Shown here one piece after another: positions 15,306 through 19,302 of a stretch of 32,083 bases of DNA. The notes below the pieces were generated by a model. It saw only the letters and a program-made list of their open reading frames with translations, ran no database searches and was not told where the DNA came from. Both the position numbers and the translations under genes were made by a program. The stretch comes from Actinomycetota bacterium (lineage in GTDB: Bacteria; Actinomycetota; Acidimicrobiia; Acidimicrobiales; Ilumatobacteraceae). Location: positions 1-32,083 of the forward strand of contig WLSJ01000003.1 in the NCBI GenBank assembly GCA_009705865.1, in the 5' to 3' direction. How positions within the stretch are numbered: the stretch's first letter is position 1; every line of letters begins with the position of its first letter.

Positions 15306-17201
15306 TTATTGCGATTTCGTAATGTCGCGCAGAAACTGTTCTATTTCAGCGCGATCACGGGTACGCGCCATAGGCGGTAGTGCAGCAATAAGGGTTCGCC
15401 AATAGCCAGCAGTGGCAAGACGGCGGTCAAGCACGGCGACAACGCCTTTGTCTTCCGCAGTGCGAATCAGGCGACCCGCAGCCTGAGCAAGTGACGTTGC
15501 AGCGATGGGAAGGTCAATCTGACTAAATGCGGTGTCGCGCCCGACAGCTTCGCGGCGCGCTTCAAGAAGTGGGTCATCGGGACGAGGGAACGGCAACTTG
15601 TCGAGCACTACGAGTGACAATGTTCGTCCTGGGAGGTCGATGCCTTGGAAAAAAGCCTGCGATGCAAAGATGCACGAACTTTCATCGGCCATAAACATCT
15701 CAATCAGTTTTTGGCGTGGGTAATCAGCAGGGCTCAAGATGGGAACTGAAAGTCGTTCACGCATTGCATCTGTGGCTGCGTGCAAAGCCTTGTTGCTTGT
15801 GAACAGTGCAAGTGTGCGACCGCCTGCTGCAGTAATGAGTGCTTCAAGTTCATCATGAACGAACTCTGTGAACTTCGGATCATTGCGATCTGGGAACGTA
15901 GGGGAGCAGTACAAGCGAGAATTGCGCTCATAATCAAAAGGGCTCTCAACAGAGAGAATTTCAGTTCCGTCTAACGGAAGGCCAACACGTTCTGGAAGAG
16001 AGGCCGGAATGGTTGCGCTGGTAAGAACGGCTGCAACGTTTCCCCAGACAGAACCAGACATCACTTCTCCGACATGAAGAGGGCTGATGCGTAGTTGCGG
16101 ACGATCTGGTGAACCTTCGACATAAGCGACATATCCCTGGATGGTTCCGAGAGCTAAGTCAAGCGCTTCAGCTAAGCGCGTCGCTTGTGTCTGTGCTCTG
16201 TAACTCTTTTGTTGTGTTGACTCGTTATCTGTAGAGATGCCACGTAGCGCGCCAAGAATGGTGTTGATCTCAATTCGTGCCAAGGCCAACGGCTCAGTCA
16301 CGGATGTGGGCAGAGGGTTAGAGAGTCGTTGACCAGACATCGGTGTGAGTGCAGAGGTGAGACGAACCCCTTGAGATTCAAGTGCACTGGTAACAGTTGG
16401 GTCAGCGATGACTTTGCGTACAGCTGACGCAAGGGAAGTGAAACGGCCAGACCCGAGCTGTACGCCAACCGTGTCGCTCATCACTGATTCGAGTTGATGA
16501 GCTTCATCAAAGATGACAACTTCATGTTCTGGAAGCAAGGAACCGCCGCTGGCGATATGAAGCCCGTATATATGGAGGTTGACAACGATGACATCTGCGG
16601 CGGCGGCTGCATCGCGAGCCTTTTCAGCAAAGCAATCATTACCCACGGGGCATTTTTGTTTCCCGGGGCATTCGTCGCTACTAACTGACACAGCTATGCG
16701 AGCACGTTCACTAGGTACCCGTGGCAATTCTTCAAAGTCACCTGTGCGGGTTTTGCCTGCCCACTTCACAATTGTTTCTATCTCGCGCTTGGTTGAGCCT
16801 GATACTTCTTCGAATTCCAGCTGACCGGCTGTTTCACTGAGTTCATTGATGCGCTGGCGACATACATAGTTGTTGCGGCCTTTGATGACTGCCCAGGAAA
16901 AATCGATACCGAGATGTTGTGCAAGAAGTGGAAGGTCGTTGCGGTTCAGTTGGTCTTGCAGTGCCTTTGTAGCGGTTGCGACAACTGTTTTTTTGCCATT
17001 AAGAAGAGCTGGCACGAGATACCCGAGTGACTTTCCGGTACCTGTCCCTGCTTGCACAATGATGGACCTGCCAGCTGCAAGAGTTTCTGCGATGGCATGT
17101 GCCATGTCGATTTGGCCTTGACGTTCTTCAGCGCCTTCGAAAGACGACGTAACTTTGCGCAGTGCCTCGATGGAAGCGGTTCCCGCTAGTGAGCGGCTCA
17201 T
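15306..17201 (-). CDS. DinG/XPD-like ATP-dependent DNA helicase (Fe-S type)
   Basis: VQAGTGTGKSLGYLVPAL (Walker A), VIFDEAHQLE (DEAH), Fe-S-type Cys set NNYVCRQ...DECPGKQKCPVGNDCFAEKA, C-terminal ASLAQAAGRLIRTAEDKGVVAVLDRR. Confidence 0.93.
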   Translation of the reverse strand: MSRSLAGTASIEALRKVTSSFEGAEERQGQIDMAHAIAETLAAGRSIIVQAGTGTGKSLGYLVPALLNGKKTVVATATKALQDQLNRNDLPLLAQHLGIDFSWAVIKGRNNYVCRQRINELSETAGQLEFEEVSGSTKREIETIVKWAGKTRTGDFEELPRVPSERARIAVSVSSDECPGKQKCPVGNDCFAEKARDAAAAADVIVVNLHIYGLHIASGGSLLPEHEVVIFDEAHQLESVMSDTVGVQLGSGRFTSLASAVRKVIADPTVTSALESQGVRLTSALTPMSGQRLSNPLPTSVTEPLALARIEINTILGALRGISTDNESTQQKSYRAQTQATRLAEALDLALGTIQGYVAYVEGSPDRPQLRISPLHVGEVMSGSVWGNVAAVLTSATIPASLPERVGLPLDGTEILSVESPFDYERNSRLYCSPTFPDRNDPKFTEFVHDELEALITAAGGRTLALFTSNKALHAATDAMRERLSVPILSPADYPRQKLIEMFMADESSCIFASQAFFQGIDLPGRTLSLVVLDKLPFPRPDDPLLEARREAVGRDTAFSQIDLPIAATSLAQAAGRLIRTAEDKGVVAVLDRRLATAGYWRTLIAALPPMARTRDRAEIEQFLRDITKSQ

Positions 17202-17887
17202 GAAGCTATGCCATTGGCATAAGCGGCAAGTGCGAGGTCAAGCTCGGCAGCATCAAAGTCTGGCCACGTGCGTTCGGTGAAAAAAACGCGGCTGCCAGTG
17301 ATTTGCCACAACATGAAATTGGAGATCCGTGACTCACCTGAGGTGCGAACAAGTAAATCGACAGATGGCATTGAAGGGTCGTACAGATTGTGGGAAATGC
17401 TGTCTGGCGTTACTGGGCCGGCTGCCATGGCGCGTTGAGAAGCTCGTACTAATTCAGCGCGACTTCCGTAATCAAATGCAACAGTGACCACAAGGCCAGT
17501 GTTGTGTTCGGTATCAGAGATGGCTTTGCGAATGGCCTTTTGTACATAGACAGGAGTTCGTGCACCAGGCTCGGCAAACGGGCGACCAATCCATCTGGTG
17601 CGAGCATTGTTTTCGTTCATCTCGTTGATGCGACCAAAAAGTTTGCGGTGAAGAGACAGAATGTGGCGTACTTCGGTGCGGGGCCTCACCCAGTTTTCTG
17701 TGGAGAACCCGAACACGGTGAGCCAGCCCACAGAGCGACGAGCACAAGCGCGAACCACTCCGGCAAGTGCCTCTTCGCCCGCGGTATGACCTTCCGTACG
17801 CGGTAGACCCTTGCGGCTAGCCCATCGGCCATTGCCATCCATAATGCAGGCCACATGGATTGGCAGGGGTGCGGTAGGGACATTCAT
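17198..17887 (-). CDS. uppS: cis-Prenyltransferase / undecaprenyl diphosphate synthase family catalytic subunit, lacking the C-terminal RxG motif
   Basis: HVACIMDGNGRWASRKGLPRTEGH, VFGFSTENWVRP, DYGSRAEL, DLLVRTSGESRISNFMLWQ, WPDFDAAELDLALAAYANGIAS-stop; the usual RERRFGG tail is absent. Confidence 0.95.
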   Translation of the reverse strand: MNVPTAPLPIHVACIMDGNGRWASRKGLPRTEGHTAGEEALAGVVRACARRSVGWLTVFGFSTENWVRPRTEVRHILSLHRKLFGRINEMNENNARTRWIGRPFAEPGARTPVYVQKAIRKAISDTEHNTGLVVTVAFDYGSRAELVRASQRAMAAGPVTPDSISHNLYDPSMPSVDLLVRTSGESRISNFMLWQITGSRVFFTERTWPDFDAAELDLALAAYANGIAS

Positions 17888-17965
17888 GGCATCTGCACCC
17901 TAGTTTCTCAGTGCGTCACAATGTCGTGCAACGCCGAGAGAGGTGGGTGCGTGGGAGACTAGAGC

Positions 17966-18586
17966 GTGCCTCACAGTGCTTCGCCAACGTTCCCCGGTCT
18001 CGATCATGTGGTCGTTTCTGGCGGCACCCCTGCTGAATGGGCCGCGATGTCCGCAGTTGAATGGACACAACGTCTCGATGCACTGGCTGCGGGTGTCAAG
18101 AGCAGTAGAGCACATTGGGTAACTCTGTTGCCACACCACGGAACAGAACTGCAGCCTCATGAGTTGGCGCAATTTTCAGAATTGATATCAGCCACCGGAA
18201 AAGTTGTGTTGGAAGATGCAGGTTACGGCCAACGTTTTGTGTGGCATCGCACGGCGAAACAAAGCATCATTATTGATCCGTCCTCAGATGGTCATAGAAG
18301 GTTTGCATCAATCATTGAATCGATGCGCCAATCAGGAGTTGACCCAGACAGCATTGACGAAAACGCTTTGACTGAAGCTTTGCTAGCACCAGCAACTAAC
18401 GATGCTGATTTGGCAGTCATCTTGGGACCACCTGATCGAATGCCTGAATCAATGGTGTGGGAATTGGCGTACTGCGAAATCGTATTTCTTGATCTTGATT
18501 GGTCTGCGTTTACTGCGAATCATTTGGAATTGGCAATTGATGATTTCAATCGCCGTCATCGTCGTTTCGGCGGACTTGATTCGTGA
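17966..18586 (+). CDS. Divergent UppS-fold (NgBR-like) putative non-catalytic cis-prenyltransferase subunit
   Basis: Aligns by eye with UppS: HVVVSGGTPAEWA vs HVACIMDGNGRWA; AHWVTLLPHHGTE vs GWLTVFGFSTEN; C-terminal DLAVILGPPDRMPESMVWELAYCEIVFLDLDWSAFTANHLELAIDDFNRRHRRFGGLDS vs the DLLVRTSGExRxSNFxLWQ...WPDF...RRFGG region. Catalytic Asp and RTSGE are lost; RRFGG is kept. GTG start. Confidence 0.75.
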   Translation: MPHSASPTFPGLDHVVVSGGTPAEWAAMSAVEWTQRLDALAAGVKSSRAHWVTLLPHHGTELQPHELAQFSELISATGKVVLEDAGYGQRFVWHRTAKQSIIIDPSSDGHRRFASIIESMRQSGVDPDSIDENALTEALLAPATNDADLAVILGPPDRMPESMVWELAYCEIVFLDLDWSAFTANHLELAIDDFNRRHRRFGGLDS

Positions 18587-19302
18587 GCACCTATCGCGAT
18601 AAGGCCGTTGTGCTGGGGTCGTATAAATTTGGCGAAGCTGATCGAGTGGTGGTGTTGTTGACCGAAGAGCACGGCAAAGTACGTGCAGTTGCCAAGGGTG
18701 TTCGCAAGACGAGGTCATCGATAGGTGCGCGGCTTGAACCCATGAGCCATGTTGATGTGTCGCTTCGGTCTGGAAAAAATCTGGACACCATCGCTGAAGT
18801 GAAACTCATTCATACTCACTCTGCGTTACGTACTGATTTTGATCGATTGAATCAGGGACTTTCAATGTTGGAGGCCGTGAATAAATTGACTCCAGATCGA
18901 GAGCCGGTCCCGCACTTATTCGAAGTGTTGTCTCGCGCTCTTCATGCTCTAAACGAACGACATTCACCCTTGATGTTGGGAGCTTTCTATTGGCGTCTTT
19001 TGTCAATTGAAGGACACGGTCCACAAATTGATGCATGTGTTCGTTGTGGCGAGCAAGGCGACATCGTTGCCTTTGATGTTTTAGAAGGTGGCGGCCATTG
19101 TGCTGCGTGTCGCTCCGGGGTGCCGATATCGCAGCAAGCCCTCGACATTTTGCGAATGGTGCTTGGTGGGCGGATGAATGAGGCACTCGCATTGCCAGAA
19201 TCCCCAGCTGTGCATGAAGTGAGTCAACTGGCGATGGAGGCGATGGAAGCTCATCTTGAGCGCCGACTACGAAGCCTCGGAGTGTTCGACCGCCACTTGT
19301 AG
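18583..19302 (+). CDS. recO: DNA repair protein RecO
   Basis: STYRDKAVVLGSYKFGEADRVVVLLTEEHGKVRAVAKGVRKTRSSIGARLEPMSHVDVSL; zinc motif CVRCGEQ...CAACR. 4-bp overlap (GTGA) with the preceding gene. Confidence 0.95.
   Translation: MSTYRDKAVVLGSYKFGEADRVVVLLTEEHGKVRAVAKGVRKTRSSIGARLEPMSHVDVSLRSGKNLDTIAEVKLIHTHSALRTDFDRLNQGLSMLEAVNKLTPDREPVPHLFEVLSRALHALNERHSPLMLGAFYWRLLSIEGHGPQIDACVRCGEQGDIVAFDVLEGGGHCAACRSGVPISQQALDILRMVLGGRMNEALALPESPAVHEVSQLAMEAMEAHLERRLRSLGVFDRHL

Follow-up and report, generated by a model that had tools for sequence, protein, structure and literature searches.

Cis-prenyltransferases of bacteria have been described as homodimeric and those of eukaryotes as heteromeric (PMC7839719). 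In the homodimeric mycobacterial enzyme MtDPPS, the RxG arginine of the counter-subunit (Arg292*) forms a hydrogen bond with a Mg-bound water or, when magnesium is absent, with the catalytic Asp76 itself (PMC6450523). The RxG tail of human NgBR forms both substrate sites of its partner DHDDS, and the R290H substitution lowers activity (PMC7573591); relative to the complex, DHDDS homodimers have a kcat reduced approximately 500-fold (PMC6921004). The motif is not absolutely required across the superfamily: MM_0014, a homolog from archaea, shows activity without RxG (PMC8131916). Also archaeal is MM_0618/MM_1083 from Methanosarcina mazei, a heteromeric cis-prenyltransferase for a glycosyl carrier lipid (cited in PMC8131916).

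No heteromeric cis-prenyltransferase from bacteria was described in the literature that we searched, nor did we find there any published work on Ilumatobacter and undecaprenyl; these searches were restricted to open-licence texts and therefore do not prove novelty. Here we examine a pair of divergent genes within a stretch of 32,083 nucleotides (herein, the window) from a member of the Ilumatobacteraceae. The source is a fragmented metagenome-assembled genome (MAG) of 1.64 Mb in 170 contigs, estimated to be 74% complete.

Results

Two divergent genes encode UppS-type proteins

The two open reading frames singled out by the initial annotation were located where it had placed them (Table 1). The minus-strand product, which we refer to as the catalytic subunit, matches Pfam PF01255 with an E-value of 2.4e-63 over positions 1-213 of the 219 in the profile. 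Because the match ends at position 213, the chain stops before RxG. It retains all cis-acting motifs (MDGNGRW, FSTENW and RTSGE-R-S) and is missing the C-terminal RxG, in agreement with the annotation; this protein thus does not combine the catalytic residues and RxG in one chain as homodimeric UppS does. Its AlphaFold model (pLDDT 88.5, pTM 0.87) finds UppS and other cis-prenyltransferases as its best PDB fold matches, with TM scores of approximately 0.8.

Table 1. Features of the divergent uppS-type locus, in positions of the window; subunit names denote proposed roles.
Feature	Positions	Strand	Remarks
dinG-type helicase gene, downstream of catalytic gene	15306..17201	-	Helicase_C_2, E 2.1e-34; other border of ancestral uppS slot
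Catalytic subunit gene (UppS-type cis-prenyltransferase)	17198..17887	-	229 aa; PF01255 and motifs
Divergent intergenic region, common to both genes	17888..17965		78 bp between start codons
Partner gene (non-catalytic UppS-fold subunit)	17966..18586	+	206 aa; GTG start; PF01255
Partner C-terminal RRFGG (RxG) segment	18560..18577	+	conserved in 55/55 partners
recO, overlapping the partner stop	18583..19302	+	RecO_N/RecO_C; border of ancestral uppS slot

The plus-strand product, herein the partner, had been annotated as an UppS-fold paralogue that is devoid of catalytic motifs and ends in RRFGG. This description was borne out by sequence and by the fold of the model alike. PF01255 matches the partner (E 1.1e-11) in its C-terminal half only, from residue 122 to 202 (profile positions 138-219) and through the RRFGG end; the same family is matched by 46/46 partners. 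The best alignment among solved structures is with residues 157-247 of E. coli UppS, again including the RRFGG tail, and this alignment fixes the numbering used below for R194, R200, S202, W207, Y211, E213, W221, R239, R241, R242 and G244. Direct comparison of the catalytic subunit with the partner reveals weak similarity, located in the C-terminal half of the latter. For the AlphaFold model of the partner (pLDDT 88.8, pTM 0.86), the 50 best listed PDB fold matches are exclusively cis-prenyltransferases, and the best of them reach TM scores of approximately 0.55-0.6.

The gene order in pair-bearing members of the family is dinG(-), catalytic(-), partner(+), recO(+), glyS(+). Head-to-head orientation was found in 53/53 checkable pairs, that is, those with both genes on one locus, and the gap between the homologous N-termini ranges from -11 to 195 bp. 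The intergenic region of the window presumably holds both promoters.

The pair is distributed across the Ilumatobacteraceae

The partner could be matched in 144 of 150 Ilumatobacteraceae genomes, and a true partner is present in approximately 140 of these; genomes G066, G078, G110 and G158 match only by way of a full-length UppS. The pair spans approximately 24 genera, with the single-contig genomes G067, G074 and G092 among its carriers. Six genomes gave no partner match. One (G096) belongs to the same genus as G078, three (G029, G035 and G143) have no PF01255 match at all, and in the remaining two (G168 and G191) the catalytic gene sits at a contig end. Co-occurrence of the partner with an RxG-less UppS, on which the initial annotation had made its proposal depend, is family-wide, and its exceptions trace to contig ends or gaps.

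In members of the family that lack the partner, either one UppS of full length is present or the slot is empty, and the other families sampled from the order, class and phylum have full-length UppS, usually just one among the matches listed. A profile built for the partner scores 178-250 bits within the Ilumatobacteraceae and at most 105 bits outside, where in nearly all cases it matches only the C-terminal half of an ordinary UppS.

Another full-length UppS in the same genome would have refuted the annotation. We found no PF01255 gene beyond the pair in the window genome, an absence that is weak alone at 74% completeness, and no second full-length UppS in G067, G074 or G092, all of which carry the pair. 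The idea of a hidden full-length enzyme was consequently rejected for the window genome and for its high-quality pair-carrying relatives, and the two genes can be said to co-occur without a self-sufficient enzyme in the genome. One MAG (G006, contig C178) contains a second, near-identical copy of the catalytic subunit (L092) at a contig end, which probably represents strain heterogeneity.

Conserved residues are divided between the two proteins

We aligned 28 single-gene UppS, 59 catalytic subunits and 55 partners; the functional roles of individual E. coli UppS residues are in part general background on the family. Asp26 is present in 28/28 single-gene enzymes and 58/58 catalytic subunits (one fragment was left out), and is replaced by Gly in 55/55 partners. 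Likewise, N28, R30, H43, N74, R77, R194, R200 and S202 are invariant in the first two sets and lost or replaced in nearly all partners, with R200 still an Arg in 21 of 55. The partner of the window itself lacks Asp26, Asn28, Arg30, Arg194 and Ser202 and keeps Trp207, Tyr211, Glu213 and the R-x-RRFGG tail. The tail exhibits the opposite distribution: R239, R241 and G244 are invariant in the 28 single-gene enzymes and in 55/55 partners, as is R242 with one exception (27/28 and 55/55), and all four are missing from the catalytic subunits. The residues R, R, R, F, G and G of the tail are each found in 55/55 partners, and RxG is absent at the homologous position from all 59 catalytic subunits aligned. 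The homologue from G077 is the only one of the 59 to have an R-Q-G close to its end, in a register shifted by three residues.

Two further positions, which the initial annotation did not mention, partition with the RxG tail and not with the catalytic motifs. Tyr211 and Glu213 are each present in 28/28 single-gene enzymes and 55/55 partners. In the catalytic subunits position 211 is mostly Gly (44/59), and position 213 is Lys in 23, Arg in 14, Ala in 9, His in 4 and Glu in only 3 of 59, with other residues in the remainder; the catalytic subunit of the window has Gly and Arg, respectively. From this partition, we predict that Tyr211 and Glu213 act in trans, as RxG does. No accessible literature text testing a trans role of Glu213 was found.

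It could be argued that, like MM_0014, the UppS without RxG works on its own as a homodimer, and that its paralogue merely regulates or chaperones its level or activity. There is precedent for this in MM_0014 and its relatives, which are active without RxG (PMC8131916), and in the weak activity of human DHDDS homodimers (PMC6921004). A regulator, however, has no need of an R-x-RRFGG tail, a Tyr211 and a Glu213 that are invariant in 55/55 partners; moreover, the residues that the partner keeps are those that the catalytic chain has lost, and where a genus lacks the partner, its UppS is full-length. We therefore consider a self-sufficient homodimer unlikely. Two details do count against a heteromer, namely the 3/59 catalytic homologues that keep Glu213 and the out-of-register R-Q-G of G077.

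The partner is maintained by selection

Among pairs with unsaturated dS, dN/dS is 0.025-0.11 for the catalytic subunit and approximately 0.05-0.18 for the partner, and the latter values indicate that the partner reading frame is under purifying selection. This selection is difficult to reconcile with a decaying or neofunctionalised duplicate that has no role in prenyl transfer, as might be supposed from the loss of the catalytic motifs and from the faster evolution of the partner (mean pairwise identity is 41%, whereas the catalytic subunit reaches 68% and RecO 61%). The partner is also kept in approximately 140 of 150 genomes, shows fixed linkage to the catalytic gene, and has 15 alignment columns without variation, which cluster in the C-terminal part of UppS. 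Taken together, these data render a duplicate of this type very improbable.

That the pair might be an artefact, with one uppS broken into two reading frames by misassembly or frameshift or with a C-terminus missing from a fragmented MAG (170 contigs, 74% complete), is scarcely credible, given that the same layout recurs in approximately 24 genera including the three single-contig genomes, that the genes lie on opposite strands, and that both keep homologous N- and C-terminal halves; together with the dN/dS values, the spread over genera and the single-contig genomes led us to rule out pseudogene and assembly artefact alike.

Partner and catalytic distances co-vary beyond what is accounted for by RecO (partial r 0.38, a value reached by none of 2000 permutations). 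As this single gene was the only control, the correlation is supportive and not decisive.

The partner occupies the ancestral uppS position

We compared synteny over the loci of the family and 22 outgroup loci. Single-gene relatives have one uppS between divergent dinG and recO, in the same direction as recO, and G066, a member of the same family (genus g36), has kept a single uppS in this ancestral slot. The dinG/recO synteny therefore places the partner at the ancestral uppS position and identifies the catalytic gene as its inverted neighbour. The initial annotation had recognized the recO/uppS neighbourhood and had suggested a duplication; synteny supports both points, with the correction that the ancestral slot is held by the partner and not by the catalytic gene. 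We infer from this synteny that uppS was duplicated in inverted, head-to-head fashion; the resident of the slot would subsequently have lost catalysis, and the inverted copy the tail.

In a protein tree, catalytic subunits and partners are each monophyletic (SH-aLRT 100 and 99, respectively), with the caveat that partner branches are long. For RecO, DinG and GlyS, constraining the genera that bear the pair to a single clade gives a tree no less likely than the unconstrained one (AU p 0.667), and the data are thus compatible with a single origin of the pair. By the same result, genera g36 and g48 may predate the split.

Genus g48 (L081, L091 and L090 from G078, G110 and G158, respectively, and L204-L206) has a dinG-recO junction without either gene and an UppS of a different type elsewhere in the genome. 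This type groups with the enzymes of G037 and G052 from other families and lies away from recO. The empty junction and the other type of UppS suggest that uppS was replaced in this genus. We do not claim a joint loss of the pair in g48, which would have amounted to a natural deletion experiment, since the tree uniting the pair genomes is no less likely. G158, although coded as genus g37, carries the g48-type UppS, has no recO match, and is possibly misbinned.

A common origin with NgBR/Nus1 receives no support from sequence: the match between partner and NgBR is insignificant (E approximately 1.6), whereas bacterial UppS match the partner at E 1e-11. The position of the partner in the actinobacterial uppS slot favours an origin independent of NgBR/Nus1.

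Related paralogues are present elsewhere in the Actinomycetota

In another actinobacterial lineage (f98; L211, L212, L213 and L220 with L214, L215, L216 and L219), genomes that encode a full-length UppS with Y211, E213 and RxG also encode a second UppS that has all catalytic motifs and lacks RxG; Tyr211 is lost in 4/4 of these and Glu213 in 2. It is possible that this second UppS marks an independent or intermediate stage of heteromer evolution, and the same process may be only partly complete in other Actinomycetota whose second UppS is without RxG.

A different family (f94, genus g310; L209 and L210 from G622 and G607, and also G629) has another partner-like protein, an UppS-fold paralogue without the N-terminal catalytic motif that contains LLWEMAYAEF, ends in RSRRRGG and coexists with a full-length UppS. 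Within the order, family f31 and some additional genomes encode a second UppS paralogue of full length (L221-L234); judged by profile coverage, the second PF01255 genes of f31 are ordinary and were set aside.

Discussion

The finding is real and family-wide; a catalytically dead twin appears to lend the active subunit its missing active-site tail. The two genes very likely encode a heteromeric cis-prenyltransferase, one subunit each, whose product would be the polyprenyl diphosphate from which the cell-wall lipid carrier derives. What we observed directly is confined to sequence, single-chain predicted folds, complementary residues, co-occurrence, synteny and a phylogeny compatible with a single origin; physical interaction, activity, any dependence of either subunit on its counterpart, and the identity and length of the product are inferred.

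Because the RxG arginine of homodimeric Mycobacterium DPPS acts on the catalytic Asp of the opposite subunit, we conclude that the pair is a heteromer like DHDDS/NgBR: RxG is trans-acting in the enzyme family, and shifting it to a dedicated subunit yields the pattern observed. An enzyme that works like DHDDS/NgBR and probably evolved independently in bacteria is thus the best explanation, with complex and activity remaining inferences. In such an enzyme, the catalytic subunit would bind the allylic diphosphate and IPP, and the chemistry would be performed by its Asp26, Asn28, Arg30, Asn74, Arg77, Arg194, Arg200 and Ser202. It would be unable to complete its active site, lacking the RxG tail and, in most homologues, Tyr211/Glu213. 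The partner, as a dead UppS paralogue, would dimerise with it through the usual UppS interface, and the R-x-RRFGG tail of the partner would extend into the active site of the other chain.

The initial annotation had proposed an obligate hetero-oligomer. Its heteromeric character is supported by the pattern described above and is much better supported than strict obligacy, which is not proven, because DHDDS has weak activity by itself (PMC6921004) and MM_0014 can dispense with RxG (PMC8131916). We consider it probable, with less assurance than for the heteromer as such, that undecaprenyl/decaprenyl diphosphate synthase is an obligate hetero-oligomer on which the whole family relies, and that it originated a single time, when uppS was duplicated head-to-head and the two copies reciprocally lost cis- and trans-acting active-site residues, in convergence with DHDDS/NgBR.

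If true, a heteromer found throughout a bacterial family would mean that nature has repeated the DHDDS/NgBR split independently. UppS is an essential enzyme and a target for antibiotics, and mutations in DHDDS/NgBR cause human disease. The pair offers small, soluble and adjacent genes for studying how and why a self-completing homodimer becomes an obligate heteromer, and the predicted trans-acting role of Tyr211/Glu213 can be tested in any UppS.

The two-protein split as such is already known from the human and yeast enzymes. Like DHDDS/NgBR, and like yeast Rer2 or Srt1 with Nus1, the pair combines an RxG-less catalytic UppS-like subunit with a non-catalytic UppS-fold subunit that bears the RxG tail, and, as with NgBR/Nus1, the partner resembles cis-prenyltransferases mainly in its C-terminus. 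Unlike those systems, the Ilumatobacteraceae pair is bacterial, soluble as judged by sequence, and free of both the DHDDS-type C-terminal helix-turn-helix extension and the NgBR membrane domain; its genes are adjacent and divergent, its origin is nested within actinobacterial UppS, and its expected product is a cell-wall carrier and not dolichol. MM_0618/MM_1083 of M. mazei is likewise a prokaryotic two-subunit cis-prenyltransferase, although an archaeal one. With homodimeric UppS/DPPS, such as E. coli UppS and M. tuberculosis Rv2361c, the pair shares family and fold, and its catalytic subunit has all of the cis residues; whereas each chain of those enzymes carries both the cis residues and the trans-acting RxG, the pair divides them between two proteins.
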